DNA from: a virus
DNA length: 23,941 nt
IMG/VR virus record: IMGVR_UViG_3300031587_000009
Coordinates: 1 to 23,941 of that record
Strand: one strand, 5' to 3'
In this document: positions 2,493 through 15,008 of the stretch, piece after piece
Position numbering within the stretch: position 1 is the first letter of the stretch
Layout: the number at the start of each line of letters is the position of its first letter
The notes under the pieces: model-generated
Databases searched by the model: none
The model's input: the letters and a program-made list of their open reading frames with translations, nothing else
Told to the model about the DNA's origin: nothing
Program-made: the position numbers and the translations under genes

Positions 2493-2645
2493 ATGGCTGA
2501 AGTAAAACAGGATTCAAGAGACACATTCATCGTCAAACTGGATGAAGAAGAGATCGCAGAGCTGGAACGATACGAAGAGATCTGGGATCTTAGTACAGAG
2601 GAGACCTTCGCTAAGATTGTTGAGGAAGGCTTTGGGGTCTTATGA
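2493..2645 (+). CDS. Ribbon-helix-helix-like small protein (50 aa)
   Basis: The reading frame runs from ATG 2493 to TGA 2643-2645. After a short polar head comes DTFIVKLDEEEIAEL (a beta-strand, then helix one). The segment ERYEEIWDLSTEETFAKIVEEGF then forms a turn and helix two. This resembles the Arc/MetJ/CopG ribbon-helix-helix fold of short DNA-binding dimers. The gene's stop overlaps the next ATG (2642), suggesting coupled translation with the radical SAM enzyme. It may regulate the operon or act as an accessory subunit. Fold assignment is by eye. Confidence 0.6.
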   Translation: MAEVKQDSRDTFIVKLDEEEIAELERYEEIWDLSTEETFAKIVEEGFGVL

Positions 2646-3409
2646 TGATACCGCCAATCTATAAACCTAAAGGCAAGGCCGCCGAGTATTCGCACCTTGC
2701 GCTGACCGTTTACGGCGGCGATTGCGGGCACGAATGTACTTACTGCTGTATCCGCCGAATGAATCAGAGATTCAAACGTTCGGCAGCGCCGCATATAATA
2801 CCGGGATTATTCCGGGCATTCTGCAAACAGCTTGAAACCTTCAAGCCGGACAATCGCCGCGTGCTGTTGAGTTTTTCATCCGACCCTTATCAACCGCTTG
2901 ACAAAATTGAAGGAATGACTAGGTCAATCTTATGGATGTTGTCACGGCAGAATATAGCATTTCAGGTACTGACAAAATCCGTAAGCGCCGTTCACGACCT
3001 TGACCTCTATATGCCGTGCGACGCCTTCGCCACGACATTAACCTTTCTTGACAGCCGCTGGAAAGACTTTGAACCTAAAGCATCCTCCCCGCAAGAGCGG
3101 ATCGTTGCTCTGGACAAGGCGCATAGGCTCGGTATAGAAACCTGGGTAAGTCTTGAGCCAGTTCTTGATGATGAGGAAACGCTTAGAATAATCAGGGAAA
3201 CGTACACGCTTGTAGACTTGTATAAAATCGGCATACTGAACTATGGACAACCACCAAAACCGATTAGCTGGCGCCGGTTCGGAATCAAAGCGATAGATCT
3301 GTGCGAAAAGTTCGGCAAGCCGTACTTCATCAAAAAAGACTTAGCCAGGCATTTGACCGGCTTTCCGTTTACCAATACGGATAATCGCTGTTACGATTGG
3401 ACAAAATGA
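2642..3409 (+). CDS. Radical SAM enzyme, SPL-like phage family
   Basis: The 255-residue protein has CGHECTYC (Cys28, Cys32, Cys35), the CxxxCxxC site for the 4Fe-4S cluster that cleaves S-adenosylmethionine. Downstream LSFSSDPYQP, VLTKS and WVSLEPV are characteristic of the spore-photoproduct-lyase-like (Rv2578c-type) radical SAM proteins. The length is typical for phage members, which lack a known substrate. An unusual Cys36 directly follows the third ligand, where Tyr is usual in related proteins. It overlaps both neighbours (ATGA at the start, 4 bases with the PP-loop gene at the end), implying a coupled unit. A nucleotide or nucleic-acid modification role is plausible but unproven. Confidence 0.8.
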   Translation: MMIPPIYKPKGKAAEYSHLALTVYGGDCGHECTYCCIRRMNQRFKRSAAPHIIPGLFRAFCKQLETFKPDNRRVLLSFSSDPYQPLDKIEGMTRSILWMLSRQNIAFQVLTKSVSAVHDLDLYMPCDAFATTLTFLDSRWKDFEPKASSPQERIVALDKAHRLGIETWVSLEPVLDDEETLRIIRETYTLVDLYKIGILNYGQPPKPISWRRFGIKAIDLCEKFGKPYFIKKDLARHLTGFPFTNTDNRCYDWTK

Positions 3410-4170
3410 GCAAATTACTTTGCGGCAAATCTCTTGACCAAATAGCCATCGAACGCCTTCAAATGTTCGAGCCCGCTGCTCTGGCAAAATCGCCGGACGG
3501 TTACTATGTAGCCGTTTCCGGCGGAAAGGATTCCGATGTTGCGTGGGATTTGGTTCGCCGGTCCGGCGTCAGACACACTGCTCATTATCATGTCACTACC
3601 TGCGACCCGCCAGAGCTTGTCCGGCATGTGGCAAATCAAAGGGATATATTTTTTGAAAAGCCCGAAATGACGATGTGGCAGCTTATCAGAAAGAAAAAAC
3701 TTGCGCCTACGCGGAACCGGCGGTTTTGCTGTGAAATCTTGAAAGAACGAGGCGGCATTGACCGCCTTGTAGTCACCGGGGTCCGCTGGGAAGAGTCAAG
3801 TAAGCGAGCAAAAAGAAAAATGTTTGAGACCTGCTACCGGCAAAAAAACAAACAATTCCTCAACGTCATTATAGAGTGGAGGACGTCCGATGTTTGGGAA
3901 TATATCAGAACGCACGATTTGAAGGTTTGCGAGCTTTACGCAGAAGGCTGGAAGCGCCTGGGCTGCGTGCTTTGTCCGATGAAGCGGGACATCGAACGTG
4001 AAATGACTCGTTGGCCGCGAATCACCGACATGTGGAGGCGGGCCATAATCGAAAGCTATCGGCAAAGGGATTTCAGCCGCTTTGATTCTGCCGAGGCATA
4101 CTGGCGCTGGTGGCTTGCGCGCGACAAACAAATACCGGATGATAAACAACTCCACTTTTTTAGCGACTGA
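3406..4170 (+). CDS. Phosphoadenosine phosphosulfate reductase family (PP-loop) enzyme
   Basis: The protein has 254 residues. ATG 3406 overlaps the preceding stop and is preferred over an upstream in-frame TTG. SGGKDSD at residues 38-44 is the PP-loop that binds ATP/PAPS-type nucleotides. RRFCCEILKE (Cys108, Cys109), GVRWEES (125-131) and GCVLCPM (Cys187, Cys190) are landmarks of the phage PAPS-reductase-like family. The last Cys pair, with the earlier one, could hold an iron-sulfur cluster as in DndC/TtcA-type sulfur enzymes. True assimilatory CysH function is unlikely in a phage. Sulfur transfer to, or adenylation of, nucleic acid is a reasonable guess. It is coupled to the radical SAM gene. 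Confidence 0.8.
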   Translation: MSKLLCGKSLDQIAIERLQMFEPAALAKSPDGYYVAVSGGKDSDVAWDLVRRSGVRHTAHYHVTTCDPPELVRHVANQRDIFFEKPEMTMWQLIRKKKLAPTRNRRFCCEILKERGGIDRLVVTGVRWEESSKRAKRKMFETCYRQKNKQFLNVIIEWRTSDVWEYIRTHDLKVCELYAEGWKRLGCVLCPMKRDIEREMTRWPRITDMWRRAIIESYRQRDFSRFDSAEAYWRWWLARDKQIPDDKQLHFFSD

Positions 4171-4619: not shown

Positions 4620-4892
4620 TTACGGCAAAATGCCGTGACTCAAGACCCAGCCTTCGCAATCCCGCAGCCAATTATACCGCGCCCGCGTTACCAGGACTCC
4701 GCCAAACGGGGCAGGTTGGTTCGGGTCAATCTCGATGTCATCAAACCGGATTCCCGCGACTGAGGTCTGCCAACTGCTTGCAGACTTGCAGCCAACGGGC
4801 GCGAAGCTTGTCATACTCAGGACTGCCAACACGCTCATAATCCATAGCAGCTTCAAGGTCGCGTTTTTTCTCCTGTAGTTTTTGAATCTCAT
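4620..4892 (-). CDS. Outer-membrane spanin-like lipoprotein (Rz1-like)
   Basis: The 90-residue protein has a basic N-terminus (MRFKNYRRK), a hydrophobic core (LLWIMSVLAVLSMTSF) and a Cys at residue 35 in PVGC. This fits a lipoprotein signal peptide, although Pro at -3 is non-ideal. The mature part is Pro-containing and short (about 55 residues). Its first half lies inside the 4741-4995 gene in another frame. This nested overlap is the hallmark of two-component spanins (Rz/Rz1), which fuse the inner and outer membranes at lysis. The position next to a holin-like gene agrees. The ATG has no obvious binding site, as is common for Rz1. An accidental frame is possible, but the signal peptide argues against it. 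Confidence 0.6.
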   Translation of the reverse strand: MRFKNYRRKNATLKLLWIMSVLAVLSMTSFAPVGCKSASSWQTSVAGIRFDDIEIDPNQPAPFGGVLVTRARYNWLRDCEGWVLSHGILP

Positions 4893-4995
4893 GCTGTTTT
4901 TTTTCTTTAGCTGCCGGCCAGAATCTTGTCAGCAGCGCCAACAGAAGCGCCGCAATCGAACCGAGCGCGCCGAGGATAATAGTCCACTTTTCCAT
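4741..4995 (-). CDS. Inner-membrane spanin-like protein (Rz-like)
   Basis: The 84-residue protein has one N-terminal transmembrane helix (IILGALGSIAALLLALLTRFW). A periplasmic-type coiled coil follows (KEKKQHEIQKLQEKKRDLEAAMDYE). This is the layout of the inner-membrane spanin Rz, but it is shorter than lambda Rz (153 residues). The 3' half contains the start of the lipoprotein gene in a different frame. It starts 2 bases after the holin-like gene's stop, so it probably relies on coupled translation. A membrane-anchored coiled-coil protein of another role is the alternative. Confidence 0.6.
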   Translation of the reverse strand: MEKWTIILGALGSIAALLLALLTRFWPAAKEKKQHEIQKLQEKKRDLEAAMDYERVGSPEYDKLRARWLQVCKQLADLSRGNPV

Positions 4996-4996
4996 C

Positions 4997-5215
4997 TTAG
5001 GAAATCATTTTCTTGGCCGTTAGCCTGCCGATAAAAGCAAGCGCGCCGCCGATTATGATTGCCGCTTGCTCCAGCCAGGCCAAAATGTTTTCCTTTTCGG
5101 TCTCGATTGTCTCGGCTTGCGTCACATTGCCAAGAATCCGCAAGACAGCAACAGCCAGGACTATCGCAGCGCCCCAGATAGTTTTACTTTGCCACCACTT
5201 TTTCGTTTCTTCCAT
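4997..5215 (-). CDS. Holin-like phage membrane protein
   Basis: The protein has 72 residues. Two hydrophobic segments (TIWGAAIVLAVAVLRILG and AAIIIGGALAFIGRL) flank an acidic loop, and the ends are charged (ETKKWWQSK, TAKK). WWQSKT...WGA at the front and GG.LAFIGR.TA at the end are typical of small two-helix phage holins. Holins form the inner-membrane lesion that times lysis. The start at 5215 is chosen because AAAGGAG lies 5 bases upstream. An ATG at 5230 that overlaps the previous stop would add five residues. The spanin-like pair lies directly downstream. Function is inferred from topology and neighbours. Confidence 0.65.
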   Translation of the reverse strand: MEETKKWWQSKTIWGAAIVLAVAVLRILGNVTQAETIETEKENILAWLEQAAIIIGGALAFIGRLTAKKMIS

Positions 5216-5226
5216 TTTTACTCCTT

Positions 5227-5478
5227 TCATGCCTGAATTTGAGGATGGTTGTCAAGGTCGTGTTTGAGTTTGCGAAGGCCATCGCCGATTTTCTTTACGC
5301 GCTCCCTCAATATAATGGAGCTGGCTTCAAGTGAGCGCAACATAGCCTCCACCCTTTCAACAAGCTCATTATATTCTCCATTAGCCAGAAGGATTTCGCG
5401 ATTAATGTGCTGCAATTGCCAGTCAGGTCTATCGTTTATTGTTTTGGCCAGATTCGGTCCTCGAGCTTTCTTATCCAA
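5227..5478 (-). CDS. Coiled-coil hypothetical protein
   Basis: The 83-residue protein is soluble and mostly helical, with heptad-like spacing (REILLANGEYNELVERVEAML, RERVKKIGDGLRKLKHDL). No ATG is available: the frame opens with TTG at 5478, just after AAATCAAGAG, and overlaps the previous gene by 43 bases. The stop overlaps an ATG of the next gene. Its place between a membrane coiled-coil protein and a holin-like protein suggests a lysis or virion accessory role. Its identity is unknown. Confidence 0.5.
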   Translation of the reverse strand: MDKKARGPNLAKTINDRPDWQLQHINREILLANGEYNELVERVEAMLRSLEASSIILRERVKKIGDGLRKLKHDLDNHPQIQA

Positions 5479-5642
5479 CTCTTGATTTCGTCCAACTGCT
5501 TGTCGAATTTGCTTTCAAGGCAATTGAGTCGGTCTTTAAGATGCTTCAAATCGTTGACGTGAATTGCGTATGAGCTTATTACGCTGAAGATAAAACCGGC
5601 CAGACTAACACCAAAAATTATCCACAAGCGCACATCGTCCAT
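5436..5642 (-). CDS. Membrane-anchored coiled-coil protein
   Basis: The protein has 68 residues. One transmembrane helix (LWIIFGVSLAGFIFSVISSYA) is followed by a coiled coil (LKHLKDRLNCLESKFDKQLDEIKSWIRKLEDRIW). The start at 5642 is chosen because it forms a TAATG overlap with the stop of the LamG gene; an ATG ten codons earlier lies within that gene. The topology is spanin-like, so it might be a second inner-membrane spanin, a holin regulator or an anchor. It is in the same polycistron as the lysis genes. Confidence 0.55.
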   Translation of the reverse strand: MDDVRLWIIFGVSLAGFIFSVISSYAIHVNDLKHLKDRLNCLESKFDKQLDEIKSWIRKLEDRIWPKQ

Positions 5643-6511
5643 TATTTCGGTCCGCTGGCACGTCTTACACAAAATCCAAATGTTGCTATACCAAAAAATA
5701 TTGGGATAACGTATTCGGTTAATACCGCTATGATAATTCGCCTTCGGTAAGTTGGCGGCGCTTCGGTAACGGCAAGAATCGGCGGCTTGGCGAACATGCT
5801 AAAAGGCTCTCGGTAAAGCTGCGAGATTTCCACTGCCGTCAAAGCTCTATCATAAATCATCACATTGTCAATAAGACCGTTCCAAGCCATCGTAGCATTA
5901 TTACGGCTAATTTTTGCATTTCCTTCAATGGCATAAGTCGTGTTGTAGGTGTCTACAGATGTTAAAACTCCATCAATATAAGGCCTACTTCCCCTAATCC
6001 AGCAAATATGATGCCATTGTCCATTGTTATATGTATTTGCAGTTCTCATCTGACCGCCTGTTGTTGCAATGGCGGTTATTATTTTGCCCAGTCTGGCTGT
6101 TATTTCCCAAAAATTTGTGTTTGATGAACCGCCGTGTATAAGTGTTGAACCTGCTCCGCTTCCAATATCAGTAGTAAAGCTAAACCAAACGCAAACCGTC
6201 ATAGAAGAATAATCAAATTGAGGATTTGCTCCTAAATCAACATAATCGGTAACGCCATCAAAGTTCAGGCAGGGTCCGAATTTGCCTGGCACCCAGTTAG
6301 TGTTGCCGTAAAAAGTGCCGGTGTTCTGATTTCCGCTCGAATCATTAATCTTGCTGCCGCTGCCTTCGTTCATCAGCCCGTAGAAAACAAGACCTCTGGT
6401 AAGCGGATGCGTGCGGTTAAGTTGATACCCGCGAATTGGCTTTTGGCCATCAGCTTGTGATACTTGCACAATAGCAAGTAGTGTTATCAGTAGAAAGCTC
6501 TTATGCCACAT
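5642..6511 (-). CDS. Secreted/anchored LamG-domain (concanavalin-like) protein
   Basis: The 289-residue protein begins with a signal peptide (MWHKSFLLITLLAIVQVSQADG). A LamG/laminin-G-like jelly roll follows at about residues 35-235. Its markers are GLVFYGLMNEGSGS, DSSGNQNTG, LNFDGVTDYVDLG, QWHHICWI, and NVMIYDRALTAVEI near its end. A single C-terminal membrane segment follows (VLTEYVIPIFFGIATFGFCV). LamG modules bind glycans or calcium. Type I topology with C-terminal anchoring would display the lectin domain outside the inner membrane, which is unusual for a virion protein. It overlaps the upstream gene by 11 bases. Possible roles are surface alteration, superinfection interference or a virion component. 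Confidence 0.7.
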   Translation of the reverse strand: MWHKSFLLITLLAIVQVSQADGQKPIRGYQLNRTHPLTRGLVFYGLMNEGSGSKINDSSGNQNTGTFYGNTNWVPGKFGPCLNFDGVTDYVDLGANPQFDYSSMTVCVWFSFTTDIGSGAGSTLIHGGSSNTNFWEITARLGKIITAIATTGGQMRTANTYNNGQWHHICWIRGSRPYIDGVLTSVDTYNTTYAIEGNAKISRNNATMAWNGLIDNVMIYDRALTAVEISQLYREPFSMFAKPPILAVTEAPPTYRRRIIIAVLTEYVIPIFFGIATFGFCVRRASGPK

Positions 6512-6863
6512 CTCTGTCCATGCCCCAATATTTTAATGTTCTGCGTATCTGATTCTGAATTATGTTGACGATGGATGTGTACTTAAGGTCGCAGGCAGTG
6601 CGCTTCTGCAAATCAGTCTTTTTAGCGTCATATTCCATTGTAGCTCGGTACTCATATAATTCCCCGTTTTGAAGGCTTGTAACCTCGGATGGATTAGACG
6701 ATGCAAGCCAAGGTACCACTGAGGCTGCAAACGGCATGTATTGTCTCAAGGCCGTGCGCAGATTGACGCCGACAGTATTGTTCTCGTCTGGAACGGGAAC
6801 ATGAAAGACAATTTCAACTTCGTGATCCTCGATGCTCGATTTAAGAATGTGATAGTTAGCCAT
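6501..6863 (-). CDS. Hypothetical protein downstream of fibre genes
   Basis: The 120-residue soluble protein has no signal sequence and mixed alpha/beta content. An early strand segment (EVEIVFHVPVPDENN) is followed by a helical C-terminus (YTSIVNIIQNQIRRTLKYWGMD). A good binding site, GGAGGCTAAAA, precedes the ATG. It lies between two genes with N-terminal hydrophobic segments. Lysozyme or amidase motifs were looked for, because an endolysin is expected near here, and none was found. Confidence 0.6.
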   Translation of the reverse strand: MANYHILKSSIEDHEVEIVFHVPVPDENNTVGVNLRTALRQYMPFAASVVPWLASSNPSEVTSLQNGELYEYRATMEYDAKKTDLQKRTACDLKYTSIVNIIQNQIRRTLKYWGMDRDVA

Positions 6864-6874
6864 TTTTAGCCTCC

Positions 6875-7342
6875 TTAGTAACTATACTTGCAGCCGCGAA
6901 CAGCGGCTCTAACATCATGGCTATCCGTTGTGCCTGTTTGTTGAAAACACACTTTGAAATGTGCAAGGTCGCGGACAATGAAACTTATTTGCTGCGGGTC
7001 AATAGTCTTATCACCCTGGAACTCCAGCACGGGTGTATCATCATAATCGGTAGTGTCGTGCCCGGCGCGGACTTTGATTTTTACCTGGTCCGTTGGACTG
7101 GCATCATAATTGATTTCCACCATAACGTGATAGAAAATTGCGCCATCCGTTGTTGCATCTACATCAGTGCTCAATTCCTCTGTCGTACCACTAAGGGTTG
7201 TCCAAGAGGATGCACCACCTTCGATCCAGGCTTGAGCTATCCATGAGCCTGCTATCGTGCCTGCATAAACAACATAGACAGCAACGCTCAAGACTAGCGC
7301 GATGGCCAGTACCCATGCAGTGAACCAAAATTTCCGAGCCAT
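6875..7342 (-). CDS. Secreted or membrane-anchored beta-rich protein
   Basis: The 155-residue protein has an N-terminal hydrophobic helix (FWFTAWVLAIALVLSVAVYVVYA), which is either a signal peptide or an anchor. The remaining 125 residues are beta-rich and Thr/Asp-rich (TTEELSTDVDATTDGAIFYHVMVEI, VKIKVRAGHDTTDYDDTPVLEF). The binding site GGAGAACATT precedes the ATG. It is placed directly after the fibre gene and looks like an accessory adhesin or fibre partner. The family is not recognised. Confidence 0.6.
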   Translation of the reverse strand: MARKFWFTAWVLAIALVLSVAVYVVYAGTIAGSWIAQAWIEGGASSWTTLSGTTEELSTDVDATTDGAIFYHVMVEINYDASPTDQVKIKVRAGHDTTDYDDTPVLEFQGDKTIDPQQISFIVRDLAHFKVCFQQTGTTDSHDVRAAVRGCKYSY

Positions 7343-7351
7343 AATGTTCTC

Positions 7352-9457
7352 CTATAACCTATCTATTCGATAGGTGATTGTGATGATAACGTAATCAACA
7401 GTACCGGATTCGGCGGATGCGCCTGTCGTCAGGAAAATTGACGCTCCGGCGGCGATAGATGAATCGGTAAAGGTCAAATCTTCTTCGCCGTTCGCGTCCG
7501 CTGTTTGAGAAGATGCGAAAATATCCGAGCCGCTTGAATTGTATGAGGCGTATGCGCGCTCATTGAGATTGAAGGTTAAAACAGGCGTGCTACTGCCGAT
7601 TGCCGTAGCACGAACCGAAAAAAGCGTGCAGGATGAATCGTAGCTCAGCACTACACCCGGAACCGCTTCGCTGTCCCAATTTCCATCGTCTGCTACAACG
7701 AAAGTTCGAGTTTGATTTGGCTCTCCGTAAACCCGTGCTGTCCCGCCTATATCTCCGGCGACGAGCTGACTTTTCGTTGTATCAACGGCAATCTTTCCCG
7801 CTGCGTCAATAGTCGGTGAAGCGCCGTATGGTATCTGCAAATATCCGCTCAAAGCGGCGTTTGTCTGGGTCAGTGTCGAGCCGTGCGGGTCAGATGAATC
7901 GCCGGTATGTGCTGAGAGTTCGCTATCCGTAGCAAGCGTTACGCCCCAGATAGTTTCTACTTCGCCTTGCGTATCCCATTCAGCATCTCGCGTTATTCCT
8001 GAAGGTATGTAAGCATCTGCTATAATCGTGCCTTGCCATACGCCTGATGTTATCGTACCAAGAATGGTAATGCTTGTTGCCCCCGTCCAGGTGCCAGCAG
8101 CAATGGCCGCCAAATTGGCATGGTACGCCTGGACATCGGTTCCAATCACAAGGCCAAGTGTCGTCCTGGCGGCGGCGGAAGTGGCGTCATCAATGAGTGA
8201 ACGACCAAAGGCTGTCAGCGGAGTCAGCGCCGTTGTGCCTGCGCCTGTCCAGTAGTTCAGGTTGTCTGCCGAGGTAATCAATCCGGCAATGGCAGTTAAG
8301 TTAGGGTCTGTAGGTTCATAGACCCCTGAGTGGTTGTGCGTTGTAAGTGAAAAATCAGCGTCCGTAGTAGCAGCATTTATTTCTGCCGCAGTATCCCATT
8401 CCGAATCCCTGGTTATGCCTGAAGGTATGGCGGCATCATTCACAGAACCGGAAGCGCCGACCGTAAGCGTATCGGAAACAGAAGCGTCAGCTAAAGGTGT
8501 AGTCAGAGTCAATGCGGGTAAGGCTATTGAGCCATTGTTGAAAATTATTGTCGGGTCTGTCCCTGTGGCTCTATCCCATGTCCAGACAATGGTATCTGTT
8601 GAACCATCACCCCACGTCCGGCTGCCGTTTAGTTCTGTCGGGTCAAATGCCACTGATGGAGTTGCGCCTTCACCTGCAGCCCCTACATCTATAGCAAGCC
8701 CTTCGGTTAAAGAGGCAACATAGTTGCCGGTTGTATGCGTTGTCAGGGCTATCAGGTCATTAAGGCTTGATGCTCCTGTGCCGCCGTAAGCGGTTCCGAT
8801 AACCGTTCCTTGCCATGTGCCGCCAGCAACAATGCCGGTATCGCCTATCGTTACCGCAGTATTCTGAATTATCTTGCCGGTCGTCTCATGGAAACGAGCA
8901 ATAGCATTGTCAGTGGATGACGCTGGCCCAGTGACATCCCCGCTGCCAGCGGGCGTATAAAACTCTAGGGCCGTCTCACCCGCATTGACTCTTACAGCTT
9001 TAAGAGTCTGGCCAGCGTACGAATCTGGCGTATCAGTCAGTCCGAGAAATGTGCCTGTGCCGCTTGTTGCATCCTCAGCCCAAATCCAGCTTGAACCATT
9101 CCATTTCGGGATATAGTTCGTTGCCGGAGTGCCTGACAGATACGTTGCCACACCATCTGAACCGATAATCAAAGGCGAGGCCGTCCCTGGATTTGCATTG
9201 GGAAACGTCCAGCCAAAATCAGCCGCCATAGCCGCAGCGCCGCTGATTCGATGGCGGTTGCCGCCGTTATCGCTATCTTCGTATAGGTCTATATAGCCAG
9301 CAGAAATATCGGCGTTTCTTATGCTAATCGGCCTATGACGGCCAGTCGGAAGATGCTCGATCAGAAAAGGCCATATAGGCTGTATCGCCTGTCCCAACAA
9401 CAGCGGCAAGGACAGTGCCAGCAATGATGCGCAAACGATAAGAGTTAGCTTTCTCAT
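7352..9457 (-). CDS. Tail-fibre-like protein with an apparent signal peptide
   Basis: The 701-residue protein starts MRKLTLIVCASLLALSLPLLLGQA, a textbook Sec signal peptide and very unusual for a tail fibre. The body is fibre-like and repetitive. It has GDVTGPASSTDNAIARF and TTGKIIQNTAV (a motif common in phage fibres), AYGGTGASSLNDL, and two copies of the IPSGITRD.EWDT segment. It ends in a beta-rich domain (SSQTADANGEEDLTFTDSS onward). It follows TipJ by one tiny gene with ATGA coupling. It may be a side fibre whose leader acts otherwise, or a phage-coded exported adhesin. The lack of a visible chaperone or peptidase domain leaves its trimerisation mechanism open. Confidence 0.7.
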   Translation of the reverse strand: MRKLTLIVCASLLALSLPLLLGQAIQPIWPFLIEHLPTGRHRPISIRNADISAGYIDLYEDSDNGGNRHRISGAAAMAADFGWTFPNANPGTASPLIIGSDGVATYLSGTPATNYIPKWNGSSWIWAEDATSGTGTFLGLTDTPDSYAGQTLKAVRVNAGETALEFYTPAGSGDVTGPASSTDNAIARFHETTGKIIQNTAVTIGDTGIVAGGTWQGTVIGTAYGGTGASSLNDLIALTTHTTGNYVASLTEGLAIDVGAAGEGATPSVAFDPTELNGSRTWGDGSTDTIVWTWDRATGTDPTIIFNNGSIALPALTLTTPLADASVSDTLTVGASGSVNDAAIPSGITRDSEWDTAAEINAATTDADFSLTTHNHSGVYEPTDPNLTAIAGLITSADNLNYWTGAGTTALTPLTAFGRSLIDDATSAAARTTLGLVIGTDVQAYHANLAAIAAGTWTGATSITILGTITSGVWQGTIIADAYIPSGITRDAEWDTQGEVETIWGVTLATDSELSAHTGDSSDPHGSTLTQTNAALSGYLQIPYGASPTIDAAGKIAVDTTKSQLVAGDIGGTARVYGEPNQTRTFVVADDGNWDSEAVPGVVLSYDSSCTLFSVRATAIGSSTPVLTFNLNERAYASYNSSGSDIFASSQTADANGEEDLTFTDSSIAAGASIFLTTGASAESGTVDYVIITITYRIDRL

Positions 9458-9660
9458 AATGTCCCCTTGTCCACGATTCTTGGATTCACAGGCTGGCCGT
9501 ACCCGTCAATGCCGTCAAAAACGAACTTCTGAGTGACATCATTGGCCTGGCCTTCCATCACAAACTCGCCTTCCTGGGCCTGTAACTCAAAAGTCGAATC
9601 CTGACAAGAGCCACTGCGCAAAATACGGCCTTCTTGATTGTAGACCACAAACTGTTTCAT
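9454..9660 (-). CDS. Small protein between TipJ and fibre
   Basis: The 68-residue protein (MKQFVVYNQEGRILRSGSC onward) is beta-rich, acidic and soluble. Its ATG overlaps the TipJ stop and its stop overlaps the fibre ATG (both ATGA), so all three are coupled. Phages often encode such short proteins between tail-tip and fibre genes. It may be a fibre assembly or attachment factor; the family is not recognised. Confidence 0.6.
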   Translation of the reverse strand: MKQFVVYNQEGRILRSGSCQDSTFELQAQEGEFVMEGQANDVTQKFVFDGIDGYGQPVNPRIVDKGTL

Positions 9661-12600
9661 TTTTTCAACTCTTGAATATACAAAGACCGATTACTAATGC
9701 TCGTATCTAAAGTACTGCTATTGATGCTTCTGATAGAATAAGTATATGTTCCAGCGGATGGTGAATCAGATATATTAAAAGACACCAAAATTCCTCCTGA
9801 AATGGGTGGCCCAGTTGTTGCACTGTATATCAAAGTTGAATCCCGATAAACTCTATAAGTCGGATTGCCTAAACCACCTGTGGCATAAGCAGCACAAGAG
9901 AATTGGAGTAGTATATTTGAAACAACAGTAAAACTTAGCGATTGAATCGTCACTTCGCTTTGGCCTACACTTATAGAGCCTGATGTAAAATTACTACCCT
10001 TATCTGTGGCAGCATTGTCCGCAATTTTCGGCGTGGTGACATTCAGGTCATTGATTTTTGCGGTAGTGACAGCGTTGGCAATAAGATGGCCAGTCTGTAT
10101 TTGGTCGGCGGCAATTTTGGAAGCTGTAACGGCATTGGCCGCCAGGTGATCTGTCCCTATTTCACCGGCCAGAATCTTTCCCGCCGTCACCGCATTGGCC
10201 GCTATTTTGTCCGCCGTTACGGCATTGGCGACTATCTTATCCGCCTCGACAGCTCCCGCCGCAATCTTAATGGCTGTTATGGCTCCGGTTGCTATCTCAG
10301 TGGCTGTTACTGCCCCCGCCGCTATTTTGGCCGTAGTCACTGCAGTTGCCGCCAATTTCTCGGTTGTAACCGCAAGAGCATCAAGTTTTCCTGTTGTCAC
10401 TGCAAGAGCGTTGATTTTGCCCGCCGTAACGGCGTTATCGGCAAGCTTGGCTTCTATTATCGCCCCCGCCGCTATCTTTACGCTCGTCACGGCATCGGCA
10501 ACGAGTTTGGTGGTATCTACGGAATCCGAGGCCAGTTTGGCCAGCGTAACGTTAAGCTCAGCCAGTTTGGCGGTTGTAACATTCAAATCGGCAAGCTTGG
10601 CCGTTGTAACGGCGTTATCCGCGAGGGCTGCCGAAAGAATTGTCCCATCGACTATTATCTCACCGGGCACTAAAGTCCCTGTCGAAACCGGGTAAGCCGT
10701 TCCGCCGATATTCTGACACAGCAGTCTTTTATTCGGCCCGACCGTTTCCGAGCGTGTATTGGTAGCGCTGAGAATGTTAGGATTTGCGAGGTCCCAATAG
10801 ATGTATTTGAGATTGCTGTTGCCAGCCGTAATCTCATAACCGATTCCCTTGTAGCTGACAAGAATCGGCGTCGCACCGTCATCGGCGCTCCAAGAGACGT
10901 AGCCGCCGCCTTCGTTGTTCCATTTGAGATTCGATGGTATGAGAATATCAACTGTCGGAAACTCGACTGTGACGTTCGGCTCGCGCCTTTGAATCTCGAC
11001 AGGACGGACTTGACGGACAAGCGGCCTTTCTGCCCTGGGCGCTATCGCCGTGACGTCCGGCACGACCGGGGCGGCCTCATCCGCCGCCCAGAGATTGGCG
11101 TTATATTCGATCAGCTCGACCGTGAACTGCTGCTCCTCGGTCTGTTTGCGGTCGATGATGATAAAGTCCTTCAGGACGAGATTCTGCTTGCCTATCGCCC
11201 AGAGGTCATTAGCTTGGGGCTTAGTTCCGGTGAACTGGCCGGAAATGACTACCTGATTGCCGGAAGCGCTGAGGATCGTCTTTATAACCGGCGCATCCGC
11301 ATCCTGAAGCCGGACGGCTATCTCGTACGTCTGGCCGGCCTCCAGCGAATCCTCGATGTCGCAGTCAAGTATGAGCTTGTCGTTCGTCCCAGGCTCGTAG
11401 CCGACAAGCCTGCCGCCGCCGCGACAGCCCATTTCCTTCAGGGCGTTCCAGTTAGGGACATCGTGCTGCACGCCGATTCTGTCGCCCAGGTGATAGCCTA
11501 TGCAGTCAATGTCGCCCTGGGCCTTCATGCTGCGCTTGAGCAGCTCGTTGTGGGCGAGGCGGAACTTGGCGTAACGCCACGCCTCGGATTGGCGCGCTAT
11601 GCCCAGGGGTGTCAGCGACACCTTGTTCTTATAGGTCGTCAGGCTTGAACTGTAGATGGGCAGCGTCACCCGCTCGAAGTCGCTGTCAGAGTCGTTATAG
11701 GTTATCTCGACCTCGCTTGCCAAGTCCGTTTTGCCCGAGAAACTCTCCTCGAAAGAGCCTTGCAGGATGTTGCCTACGCTCAAAATGCCGACCCTATTTT
11801 TGGGCTTGTTGATTGCCAGCCTGAGCCTGTTGCCGCGCCAGTAGGGGGTACAGCGCGCCATCTCTGCGCTGGCAAGAACCGCGTCCCACAACGACTGGAG
11901 ACGGTCGAATATACCGTTGAAGGTGATCCGCTTCTCAGTGCCGCCCTTGCCATCGGGGCAGAGCACATCGCAGAATTGCGACAGCTCCCACCAGTCGGCA
12001 TCCACAATCTTCTGCCAATCCAGGCCCTCATACTCCTCGACCTGATATGTCCCTGTATCGCCGCTTATCACCGGCTGCGTAAGGACGTCATAGTTGACCC
12101 AGGCGGGGCTGTTTGAGTAGCCGAGCGCCCATGTGCTGCCGTCGTAGGCATCGACAATCGCCCCTTCGATTTCCGCCGATACATCAAGGGGCGGCGTCAG
12201 CTCCTCGGTGCGAAGCGCCGAGATGCCGGCCAAAACTATGCCGGGATACATGAAGCCGTCATTCAAGACCTCGTTTGCAAACTCGAAGCAGATGTCCCTA
12301 AGCTTGCGCCCGCCATCCCAGGGGCCGTCGGGCGTTGAAATTTTCGTGATTTTAACATCATAACGGGCGCCGTTTTCCATGGTCATTGCATCACTAAGTT
12401 TGTATTTCTTCCAAAAGACGTTGCTGCCGTGACCGGAATTATTGACGCTGCCGTCAAATACGGTCGTATATGTTCCGTCGGTCGTCTTTTTCGCTTCTAT
12501 CTTGAACGAGCAAGACTGTATCTCCGCACTTCCGTCCTTGTGGTAGTAGTACATCTGGCAGCGCATGATTATCTCGACATCATCGAAATCCTTGCCCGGC

Positions 12601-13364
12601 GTCTGCCAGTTGAATGCGCCTTCTGCCTGCTTGATTGTGCGGTTGACCTTGTAGCATCGGCGTGTCTTGTCAAAGAAGCTGACATAAGTCTGGCTGAGAA
12701 GGCCGCGCCGAGTCTCAACAGTAACATCGCTGAAATTGCCGTATGCCTGGTTTTGCAGGCGGATGTCGGATATGCTTTTTACAGGCCCTTCGCAGAAGGC
12801 GATAAGGGCATAGATGTTCAGGTGTTTGGAGTCCGAGCTCGGCAGGACATGTGTGGCAATGATGTTGCCGTGCAGGCGCAGCTTGCCGTATGCCTTCGGA
12901 ATAGGCAGGCCCTGCTGCTGGGTGGTTGCCGGGTCCCAGCTATATGCCTGCGATGGACTGGGGCCTTCGCCCGGCGGTCCCGGCATCAATGCCTTAGCCA
13001 AATAAACGCCGCCTATTATAATGGCGGCCTTGACCGCAAGGGCCGCTGTCGTCGCCCAGAAAGATGCAGCAGCTGCCGTTCCGTAAGTCCCTGCCATTAT
13101 CGTCATCAGCGCCCAGATGGCGCCTACGATGTCGCCGAAATCCGGCACGAAAAGGACTTGGCTGCCAGGACGCGGCTGTGCCGAGTTCCACTGTTCTTGC
13201 TGGATGATTTCACCGTCAACGGAAACGGCGTACCCGCCGTGAGCCGGTAAAAATTCCGCCGCAATCTCGGACAGCGTCCAGCCGTTATGCGGCAGCGACA
13301 GTTCCTTGCGGTCCTCAGAGAGGCCCGCTATCGTTATCTGAATCTTTGAATTTAGACTTGACAT
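9657..13364 (-). CDS. TipJ-family host-specificity / tail-tip protein (gpJ-like, I-like N-terminus)
   Basis: The 1235-residue protein is the central tail tip. The first ~75 residues form a beta-grasp-like region (SVDGEIIQQEQWNSA, GSQVLFVPDFG), followed by a hydrophobic stretch (MTIMAGTYGTAAAASFWATT, AIIIGGVYLAKALM). This resembles lambda gpI joined to gpJ. Next come the TipJ hallmarks QGLPIPKAYGKLRLHGN and LIAFCEGPVKSISDI, then the long tail-hub domains. Near residue 915 a stalk of twenty 10-residue repeats starts (VTADKIAANA-type). It ends in a small beta-sandwich-like tip whose DNA is visibly more AT-rich. Like gpJ, it should contact the host receptor and gate DNA release. It overlaps the NlpC/P60 gene by 13 bases. 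Confidence 0.85.
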   Translation of the reverse strand: MSSLNSKIQITIAGLSEDRKELSLPHNGWTLSEIAAEFLPAHGGYAVSVDGEIIQQEQWNSAQPRPGSQVLFVPDFGDIVGAIWALMTIMAGTYGTAAAASFWATTAALAVKAAIIIGGVYLAKALMPGPPGEGPSPSQAYSWDPATTQQQGLPIPKAYGKLRLHGNIIATHVLPSSDSKHLNIYALIAFCEGPVKSISDIRLQNQAYGNFSDVTVETRRGLLSQTYVSFFDKTRRCYKVNRTIKQAEGAFNWQTPGKDFDDVEIIMRCQMYYYHKDGSAEIQSCSFKIEAKKTTDGTYTTVFDGSVNNSGHGSNVFWKKYKLSDAMTMENGARYDVKITKISTPDGPWDGGRKLRDICFEFANEVLNDGFMYPGIVLAGISALRTEELTPPLDVSAEIEGAIVDAYDGSTWALGYSNSPAWVNYDVLTQPVISGDTGTYQVEEYEGLDWQKIVDADWWELSQFCDVLCPDGKGGTEKRITFNGIFDRLQSLWDAVLASAEMARCTPYWRGNRLRLAINKPKNRVGILSVGNILQGSFEESFSGKTDLASEVEITYNDSDSDFERVTLPIYSSSLTTYKNKVSLTPLGIARQSEAWRYAKFRLAHNELLKRSMKAQGDIDCIGYHLGDRIGVQHDVPNWNALKEMGCRGGGRLVGYEPGTNDKLILDCDIEDSLEAGQTYEIAVRLQDADAPVIKTILSASGNQVVISGQFTGTKPQANDLWAIGKQNLVLKDFIIIDRKQTEEQQFTVELIEYNANLWAADEAAPVVPDVTAIAPRAERPLVRQVRPVEIQRREPNVTVEFPTVDILIPSNLKWNNEGGGYVSWSADDGATPILVSYKGIGYEITAGNSNLKYIYWDLANPNILSATNTRSETVGPNKRLLCQNIGGTAYPVSTGTLVPGEIIVDGTILSAALADNAVTTAKLADLNVTTAKLAELNVTLAKLASDSVDTTKLVADAVTSVKIAAGAIIEAKLADNAVTAGKINALAVTTGKLDALAVTTEKLAATAVTTAKIAAGAVTATEIATGAITAIKIAAGAVEADKIVANAVTADKIAANAVTAGKILAGEIGTDHLAANAVTASKIAADQIQTGHLIANAVTTAKINDLNVTTPKIADNAATDKGSNFTSGSISVGQSEVTIQSLSFTVVSNILLQFSCAAYATGGLGNPTYRVYRDSTLIYSATTGPPISGGILVSFNISDSPSAGTYTYSIRSINSSTLDTSISNRSLYIQELKK
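10020..10619 (-). repeat. Twenty tandem 30-base units in the TipJ stalk
   Basis: The array is exactly 600 bases, read on the minus strand from 10619 to 10020. Each unit encodes ten residues with the consensus [AD]NAVTTAKIA. Hydrophobic positions (V4, I/L9) and a Thr/Ala-rich face repeat, with a Lys usually at position 8. Units vary mainly at third codon positions and at 1-3 residues. Such repeats occur in stalks of phage tip and fibre proteins, where they probably form a trimeric shaft. Unit number could change by slippage or recombination. Confidence 0.85.
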
Positions 13365-13780
13365 TTTTCATCAGAATTTTTGCAGCGAAAGTATCCCACC
13401 AACCAGCGCGACCAAGGCCATTCATCCAAGCGGTCAATTCTTGCCTTTTTCGTGAAAGTAGCCGTATGAATAAAACTGCGACAGTCTGGTAAGACAGTAC
13501 CACAGTGATAGCCAAACCGGCGCGAATTGAAGATCACCATTGCATAGGCTTCCGGCCCGTTGAGTTTGTCGGCCCAATGGCTCGTGATGTTCTCGGCCAT
13601 TGCCGCCTGGAACTCCATCGCCTCCGGGCTTGGCTTGTCGGGCAATTCAATTCCTCTGCATTTTTGTATCGTGCGCAACAAGCCATAGCAGTCCAAGCCG
13701 TCAAGGGTCCGCCCGCCGTAAAGAAAAGGCACGCCGATTAGGTCATCAACATCGATTTCAAGCGATTCTGATCGTGCCAC
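13352..13780 (-). CDS. NlpC/P60 peptidase of the tail tip (gpK-like)
   Basis: The 142-residue protein starts at GTG 13780, since no ATG occurs early. LYGGRTLDGLDCYGLL holds the catalytic Cys31, and GYHCGTVLPD holds His92. These are the two recognisable residues of the NlpC/P60 cysteine-peptidase dyad that cuts peptidoglycan stem peptides. A third His is at FIHT. Unlike lambda gpK there is no N-terminal JAB domain, so the protein is only the peptidase half. Its place between gpL and TipJ matches lambda. It probably opens the cell wall locally during DNA entry. It overlaps both neighbours. Confidence 0.8.
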   Translation of the reverse strand: MARSESLEIDVDDLIGVPFLYGGRTLDGLDCYGLLRTIQKCRGIELPDKPSPEAMEFQAAMAENITSHWADKLNGPEAYAMVIFNSRRFGYHCGTVLPDCRSFIHTATFTKKARIDRLDEWPWSRWLVGYFRCKNSDEKCQV

Positions 13781-15008
13781 TTTCCAGACCCGTGAAGCCG
13801 CCGAAGCGGGCCGAGTTGTTCAAAGTCCGGCAATCGGCCAGACGGCGGTTGCAGCTTGTCGCTCCTCCTGTATAGCCGCAGCGCGCATTCTTGAACTTAT
13901 GCCGGCAAAGGTCGGCGAAGTATCTGTGCAAGGGGTGGCGCTGCGCAAGCAGGCTCGGCCCGCCGACCTGAAAGGCCACATCCATTGCCGTCAGCCGCGT
14001 GGCAAGAACCTCAAACTCGGTCTGAAGCTCGGCATAGTCCTCATTGAGATTGTCGGCGTGGACGATGCTCAGCACTATCGTCGCGCCGGTCAAGCCCTCC
14101 AGCCCCTCTATGTACTCCTGTAGAAACTGCGTGACATTGCTGACGGAAAGCGTCGTCTTCGGCAGTTCGCCCTCGCTGGATTCCTGGATGAGGCTCAAAT
14201 TGAAGTTGAAGTTTTCGTACCTGGCCGGGATCTTCTCCGTGCCGCTGCCGACATTGTAGAGGCGGTTGATTTCATCTTGGCCTAATGCGCGGCTGAAAAT
14301 GCGGATGTCGTCCATCTTTCCGGTAAACGTATAGCTGGCATTTTTGCCTATTCGGTTTTCCAGATTGAGGCCAAATATTCCCTCTACGGATTGAGAAACA
14401 GCGTCCAAATAAAGTGATATAACCCCGCTAGAGTTGACCAGGACTACGTGATGCCAAGCATCTAATGTGATCGGCCCTTTTCTGCCGATGTACTGTGAGC
14501 CATTCCAGTATCCCCCTTGCACATAACCATCCAGGATATTTATACCATTGCGATTGTCACTGGCGCCGCCGGGACATATATTGATGATTGTGCCAGGTTG
14601 TGCCGTTGCATAAATCCAGGCACTAATGGAGTAATTATTTGCCTTGCCAACAATGCCGGAAAAGTTATCCCCCAGTTCCACATAATCGGTCGAACCGTTG
14701 AATGTCAGCGCCCCGCCGACCTTGCCGGTCGTGTGTAGCACATCAGTATTCTGCTGGGCGGCGCCGTGTCCGGTGTTCGGGGAACTGTCGAGCACAGTCG
14801 TATTGGCTGCATTGTCGTTCATTTTGAAATGGCGAATGCTCCCTGTGCCTGAGTACTTCTGTGCGAACCACCACAAATCCTCAAAGTTGCGGACAAGGCG
14901 TTTGGCTTGGTCCTCGGCGTCATTGAACTGTATCTCAATAAGATTCAGCCAGGGATACTTCGTGTCCAGCTTGTTCTTCTGGACGACAAGATTGGTTGGT
15001 AATGCCAT
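13758..15008 (-). CDS. gpL-like minor tail protein with an inserted LamG domain
   Basis: The 416-residue protein has gpL features at both ends. An N-terminal part (LVRNFEDLWWFAQKY) leads to a split. ELPKTTLSVSNVTQFL follows at about 281-296. The Cys-rich C-terminus CRHKFKNARCGYTG...CNRRLADCRTLNNSARFGGF has Cys368, 377, 386 and 393, the four-cysteine site that binds an iron-sulfur cluster in lambda gpL. Residues about 55-255 form a full LamG domain (FNGSTDYVELGDNF, WHHVVLVN, DDIRIFSRALGQDEI) dropped between the two. Its DNA is more AT-rich than its flanks, suggesting later acquisition. The domain would sit on the tail tip and could bind glycans. Neighbours match M, L, K, J. Confidence 0.75.
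   Translation of the reverse strand: MALPTNLVVQKNKLDTKYPWLNLIEIQFNDAEDQAKRLVRNFEDLWWFAQKYSGTGSIRHFKMNDNAANTTVLDSSPNTGHGAAQQNTDVLHTTGKVGGALTFNGSTDYVELGDNFSGIVGKANNYSISAWIYATAQPGTIINICPGGASDNRNGINILDGYVQGGYWNGSQYIGRKGPITLDAWHHVVLVNSSGVISLYLDAVSQSVEGIFGLNLENRIGKNASYTFTGKMDDIRIFSRALGQDEINRLYNVGSGTEKIPARYENFNFNLSLIQESSEGELPKTTLSVSNVTQFLQEYIEGLEGLTGATIVLSIVHADNLNEDYAELQTEFEVLATRLTAMDVAFQVGGPSLLAQRHPLHRYFADLCRHKFKNARCGYTGGATSCNRRLADCRTLNNSARFGGFTGLESGTIRIA

Follow-up and report, generated by a model that had tools for sequence, protein, structure and literature searches.

The window considered here is the whole 23,941-base stretch of the virus record IMGVR_UViG_3300031587_000009 (IMG/VR), whose coordinates and open reading frames (ORFs), as listed in an earlier note on this DNA, were verified. 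Its minus strand carries a lambda-like morphogenesis operon that runs from the capsid gene to the tail tip gene J. Downstream of J follow, in this order, a gene for a protein of 68 amino acids (aa), the gene for a fibre-like protein, those for p155 and p120, the gene for a protein with a LamG domain (LamG protein), and small membrane genes of the lysis type (Table 1). J, the 68-aa gene and the fibre-like gene are chained by ATGA overlaps and are, therefore, almost certainly co-translated late genes. The subject of this analysis is the hydrophobic leader at the N-terminus of the fibre-like protein and those of p155 and the LamG protein.

Hydrophobicity was expressed as the maximum 10-residue Kyte-Doolittle mean near the N-terminus (h), and leaders were called by a fixed rule (h ≥ 2.6, n-region charge ≥ +1, first start). 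The values of h are 2.92 for the fibre-like protein, 3.13 for p155, and 3.23 for the LamG protein, each with a net positive n-region, whereas the remaining structural proteins of the head/tail operon do not exceed 1.54. The charged residues and hydrophobic core that the earlier note had ascribed to all three are thus present. The rule is passed by 6 of the 106 mechanical ORFs of the window, namely, these three, an o-spanin-like ORF of 90 aa, and two probably spurious short ORFs on the minus strand (62 and 75 aa), which overlap or adjoin plus-strand genes. In codon-shuffled windows, 8 of 2835 ORFs pass (0.28%). In all three proteins, the n-region is basic and is followed by a strong hydrophobic core and by sites resembling those of signal peptidase I (SPase I) with small residues at −3 and −1, those of p155 being ambiguous. 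Candidate sites (slash, cleavage point) are ...LLLG/QA or GQA/IQ in the fibre-like protein and ...QADG/QK or SQA/DG in the LamG protein; both offer a site with Q at +1 (LLLG/Q, ADG/Q) as well as AxA-like alternatives. A wrong choice of start codon was considered for the window leaders and rejected, as Shine-Dalgarno (SD) sequences and the ATGA overlap support the starts: the fibre-like ATG overlaps the preceding stop and has AAGGGG upstream, and p155 is preceded by AGGAG.

Relatives were collected with two baits from the fibre-like protein, used separately: EWDTAAEINAATTD (alignment A1) and TWGDxSTDTIVWTWDRATGTDP (A2). Among the non-redundant module-sharing loci in which the N-terminus is present, drawn from uncultured viral contigs and contigs of metagenome-assembled genomes (MAGs), a leader stands at a plausible start in 21 of 21 (L002/3, L004, L005, L006/8, L007, L009, L029, L030, L032, L033, L035, L039, L040/41, L042, L044, L045, L083/84, L085, L087, L088, and L089). 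A further locus, L031, is cut before the N-terminus and lies outside the 21. Conversely, a leader is found in none of the eight module-sharing fibres of isolated phages (phiCbK, phiPsa374, HMO-2011, GB2A, RHph_N3_19, VCPH, CcrC1, and Cr-LKS3, the last found via an L005 relative; Fisher p = 2e-7), nor in any of the 68 large ORFs of the capsid-relative and isolated-phage loci. The loci with leadered fibres carry terL, portal, major capsid protein, or tail genes. L032 is probably a bacterial and not a phage locus, and fibre-like proteins with a predicted export leader occur in at least twenty other, mostly uncultured phages among those examined. The earlier note had called leaders exceptional among fibres and had raised their conservation among homologues; both points are borne out, and the related fibres do not start downstream of the leader segment.

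The leader sequences vary. Indeed, between the orthologous L004 and L085, 9 of 18 leader codons changed amino acid while the leader character was kept. Across the leadered set, Q occupies +1 in 20 of 166 candidate cleavage sites against 5.3 expected, an about fourfold enrichment that resembles the Q-rule, a feature of Bacteroidetes SPase I substrates (PMC5837995). These traits bear on the proposal that the hydrophobic N-terminus has no part in Sec export and serves a virion protein as a structural or membrane-active segment, such as a tail-tip anchor or a fusion-like helix. The hydrophobic run of p155 would be long enough for a signal anchor, and capsid proteins of Porphyromonas phages processed by the prohead protease mimic signal peptides (PMC10367356). 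The basic n-regions, cores of 10-15 residues, small −3/−1 residues, and Q enrichment at +1 are, however, signal-peptide traits; the L004/L085 leaders differ in sequence yet retain them, and lectins occur among the leadered neighbours, which makes this proposal very improbable. As far as sequence can tell, export of the leadered proteins is well supported, because the leader is found in every one of the 21 non-redundant relatives, is absent from the leaderless ones, and is accompanied by enriched Q/AxA sites.

Table 1. Positions of the window features discussed in the text (slash, candidate cleavage point).
Feature	Position	Strand	Remarks
Lysis-cassette-like small membrane/coiled-coil genes	4620..5672	-	by hydrophobicity; includes overlapping i-spanin/o-spanin-like pair (4741-4995, 4620-4892)
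LamG protein, 289 aa	5642..6511	-	leader 6446-6511; Laminin_G_3 domain 5822-6259; C-terminal transmembrane (TM) helix 5681-5740
p120, 120-aa protein	6501..6863	-	leaderless
p155, 155 aa, N-terminal leader or signal anchor	6875..7342	-	h 3.13, n-charge +2; cleavage candidate VYA/GT, leader 7262-7342
Fibre-like protein, 701 aa	7352..9457	-	PHROG tail-fibre matches at residues 355-468; h 2.92; ATGA overlap with 68-aa gene upstream; SD AAGGGG
EWDT module, EWDTAAEINAATTD (residues ~336-395)	8273..8452	-	alignment A1; carrier leadered in every locus keeping the N-terminus
TWGDxSTDTIVWTWDRATGTDP module (residues ~247-312)	8522..8719	-	common to leadered L002, L004, L083, L085, L087, L088, L089
Fibre leader, ~22 aa, MRKLTLIVCASLLALSLPLLLG/Q	9392..9457	-	cleavage two residues on (GQA/I) also possible
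68-aa protein	9454..9660	-	couples J to fibre via ATGA overlaps
J-like tail tip protein	9657..13364	-	leaderless; phrog_31 E=7e-95; tail-fibre PHROGs at residues 893-1116; h 1.02
Tail L-like protein with inserted LamG domain	13758..15008	-	leaderless (internal control); Pfam Phage_tail_L + Laminin_G_3

Signal peptides had been assigned in the earlier note to all three proteins. For the fibre-like and LamG proteins this assignment stands, whereas p155 is ambiguous: it has a candidate site (...VVYA/GT), but it could instead be an uncleaved signal anchor because its hydrophobic run of about 20 aa is long enough. In the single-sequence model of p155 (mean predicted local distance difference test score, pLDDT, 55), the N-terminal helix is the sole confident part; this model and that of the LamG protein (mean pLDDT 32) are too poor for a fold search. 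No homologues of p155 were found, so that the leader conservation includes no p155 relatives; close relatives of J and the LamG protein were likewise sought in viral contigs, and none was found. The interval is not uniformly leadered, p120 having no leader between p155 and the LamG protein. The latter matches Pfam PF13385 (E=7e-17, 62.4 bits against a curated cut-off of 27.6) and has the C-terminal hydrophobic helix previously described (residues ~258-277; helix 253-285 in the model). The same window holds a leaderless LamG domain, inserted in the tail L-like protein at residues ~104-248 and missing from its orthologue (205 aa) in the viral contig G435. The tail L-like protein is 24% identical to the exported-type LamG protein; of the two, the late gene has a leader and tail L has none.

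The label of tail fibre, used in the earlier note, rests solely on the repeat modules (PHROG matches at residues 355-468); a tail-attachment domain was looked for, and residues 23-350 have no family match in Pfam or PHROG. The J of the window carries its own C-terminal fibre repeats and an end domain. G435, which carries L087, and the window are colinear over the head-tail connector, tail genes, tape measure, tail L, tail K, and J, with 26-43% identity. In G435 the leadered fibre, of 1028 aa, is encoded upstream of the head-tail connector, in the head region, and not after J; the G435 J is leaderless and is directly followed by holin- and lipoprotein-type genes. Between these two colinear genomes, no conserved tail-module place for the leadered fibre is found. 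Since its position differs while the tail core, the leaderless J included, is shared, the leadered fibre behaves as a mobile accessory. Given the leaderless J with its own fibre repeats and the different placement in G435, the fibre-like protein of the window has kept its modules but is probably not the tail fibre of the virion. A leadered fibre/LamG-type gene occupies a place similar to that in G435 in L078, a genome contig whose capsid gene is related. Phage C75C1 is a close relative of the podovirus contig G022 (terminase 75%, portal 69%, capsid 65%), which encodes a canonical tail fibre (807 aa) that has no leader. G022 has four extra leadered genes between head and tail (an EWDT fibre-like gene, two beta-helix-like genes, of which one matches Pfam, and a LamG-like gene), whereas the corresponding C75C1 genes are all leaderless.

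These placements have to be weighed against the possibility that the leadered fibre does belong to the virion, to which it would be attached after export, either in the periplasm or once the cell has lysed. More broadly, many uncultured tailed phages might secrete some or all of their receptor-binding fibres by Sec, the fibres then joining the virions outside the cytoplasm or forming, upon release, a soluble layer of receptor-binding proteins in its own right. Fibre-type modules, the place next to J, and the frequent position of leadered genes among head/tail genes (L004, L009, L044, L087) speak for virion loading, as do contigs without another obvious fibre and the G435 J, which ends without fibre repeats. 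Against this, no recognisable tail-attachment domain follows the leader, the family matches being mid-protein only; a leaderless receptor-binding protein is present in the window (J) and in G022; and the gene position differs between colinear relatives. Fibre assembly outside the cytoplasm is not known for tailed phages, in contrast to cytoplasmic assembly, which also counts against loading. Both the specific and the broader form are regarded as unlikely. Nor does the trait follow the capsid lineage, since the capsid relatives G011 and G017 have no clear leadered fibre.

Leadered fibres are also found beside other leadered genes. In L030 the fibre adjoins a leadered LamG gene, and in L045 both lie within one run of five leadered genes; other leadered partners are Malectin plus beta-helix (G019) and CHB_HEX/Fn3_assoc (L045). 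Runs of at least five (nearly) consecutive leadered genes are seen at L045 5576-11611, where the run follows terminase and portal, and at L083 7515-16204. Two beta-helix-like proteins with leaders, encoded at L053 13948-17408 (minus strand), have the C-terminal sequence ATLTRSASSGIGLLQ in common, perhaps as a sorting or assembly tag. In a chromosomal contig of 646 kb, a prophage tail module ends with a leadered gene (L079 3354-6161, minus strand), whose fibre-type product of 935 aa contains a Pro/Thr-rich linker.

The host is inferred to be diderm on two grounds. The first is the spanin-like pair of the window, in which one member has a TM segment plus a coil and the other frame a lipobox-like FAPVGC; the second is the G435 lipoprotein-type protein (LVAGC) beside a holin-like gene. 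A family search of the 78- and 90-aa proteins of the lysis region gave no matches. In a diderm host, Sec alone delivers proteins to the periplasm; a leader, therefore, does not imply delivery to the outer surface. The earlier note had placed the proteins on the host surface. The export part of this claim is supported by the conserved leaders; the surface part is not, as no outer-surface delivery signal (domain of the type IX secretion system, barrel) was found on the window proteins and the C-terminal helix of the LamG protein would hold this protein at the inner membrane.

The reading favoured here, to which a probability of about 55% is given, is that the leadered proteins are Sec-exported accessory receptor- or glycan-binding proteins of the fibre/lectin type and not the receptor-binding fibre of the virion, the likely benefit being the occupation or alteration of surface glycans. 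As accessory late proteins, the fibre-like protein, the LamG protein, and probably p155 would be made with the tail operon. The host Sec translocon would push them across the membrane, where SPase I would remove the leaders. The fibre-like protein could remain periplasmic, reach the outer surface, or be released at lysis, while the LamG protein would stay tethered by its C-terminal helix. Receptor binding by the virion would be left to the leaderless J, with the fibre-like protein presumably absent from the particle. Outside the cytoplasm, the binding modules would occupy or modify glycans on the surfaces of infected cells and their debris, with less superinfection and progeny re-adsorption, or an altered lysogen surface, as the outcome. 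Because extracytoplasmic placement is combined with binding modules, receptor occupation or modification is proposed; the purpose may be exclusion, receptor masking, anti-trapping, or conversion.

Several points weigh against this reading, in addition to the inner-membrane tether and the missing surface signal. Leaders were called by a simple test of hydrophobicity and charge, about six loci required the choice of an internal start, and the homology of the relatives is modular and not full-length. The G435 J lacks the C-terminal repeats of the window J, and no separate leaderless fibre was identified in G002, G003, and L005; in these cases, there may be no fibre other than the leadered protein.

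A further alternative holds that these are bacterial-type surface adhesin genes serving lysogenic conversion, with phage fibres and bacterial surface proteins having swapped repeat modules, whence the fibre likeness. It is suggested by the leadered EWDT protein of L032, an Omnitrophota MAG contig in which no phage genes are obvious, by the lectin, Malectin, and CHB_HEX domains, which are typical of secreted proteins, and by the prophage position of the L079 gene. The ATGA coupling to J, on the other hand, points to late expression in a host near lysis, several contigs resemble lytic podoviruses, and no integrase was recognised by eye in the 24-kb window, which is incomplete. This alternative is also considered unlikely. 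The whole fibre-like protein gave no matches in bacterial genomes, where the module alignment did work; phylum-wide scans with the EWDT module yielded no new cases, and a phrog_31 search for J in 17 contigs did not find it apart from one partial match.

Among known systems, the nearest is lambda Lom, a late gene right after J whose product has an N-terminal signal peptide, is inserted in the host envelope, and is expressed in infection and lysogeny (PMC12309495). The fibre-like gene is also late, just downstream of J, and leadered. Lom, however, is a small outer-membrane beta-barrel without fibre/lectin modules, and no Pfam or PHROG match to a Lom/Ail-type barrel was found for the fibre-like protein, p155, or the LamG protein. 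At L003 14618-15124, downstream of a leadered fibre, a 168-aa leadered protein ending in VLSFGLRIKF has a barrel-like (Lom-like) look and no family match. Phages of Porphyromonas gingivalis ('Nixviridae') encode Sec-leader proteins of unknown function that follow the Bacteroidetes Q-rule (PMC10367356). They resemble the present proteins in being phage-encoded, in their Sec leaders, and in their Q-rule-like sites but, compared by description only, are not described as fibre- or lectin-type. The fibres of phiCbK, HMO-2011, phiPsa374, VCPH, GB2A, and the others have modules in common with the fibre-like protein, but all eight examined are leaderless. Surface-displayed targets of bacterial diversity-generating retroelements (DGRs) and fibre-like adhesins are exported binding proteins with leaders (PMC6199706, PMC8144416), and phage DGR targets are reported without signal peptides (PMC6199706). 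The likeness to the bacterial proteins lies in their being leadered binding proteins. In the open-access papers that were searched, a part of the literature, exported phage proteins are described, and no leadered or exported protein of the tail-fibre type was found. Exported late phage proteins are, therefore, already known, and what is apparently new is their fibre/lectin type and wide occurrence in uncultured phages. The leadered proteins are best read, from their sequences, as a fibre/lectin version of Lom-type exported late proteins.

If this is true, the products of a class of genes usually annotated as tail fibre would leave the infected cell, and their action may be on receptors and not in the virion. 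Host-range prediction from such genes would be misled, and superinfection exclusion or progeny release would gain a further form, based on fibres and lectins. Pairs within one genome, a leaderless virion lectin or fibre beside a leadered one, make the idea directly testable.

Elsewhere in the window, positions 2642-4170 of the plus strand hold a radical-SAM-like gene (255 aa) and a PAPS-reductase-like gene (257 aa) that overlap by 13 nucleotides; assigned by eye from sequence, they are possibly a nucleic-acid modification pair.

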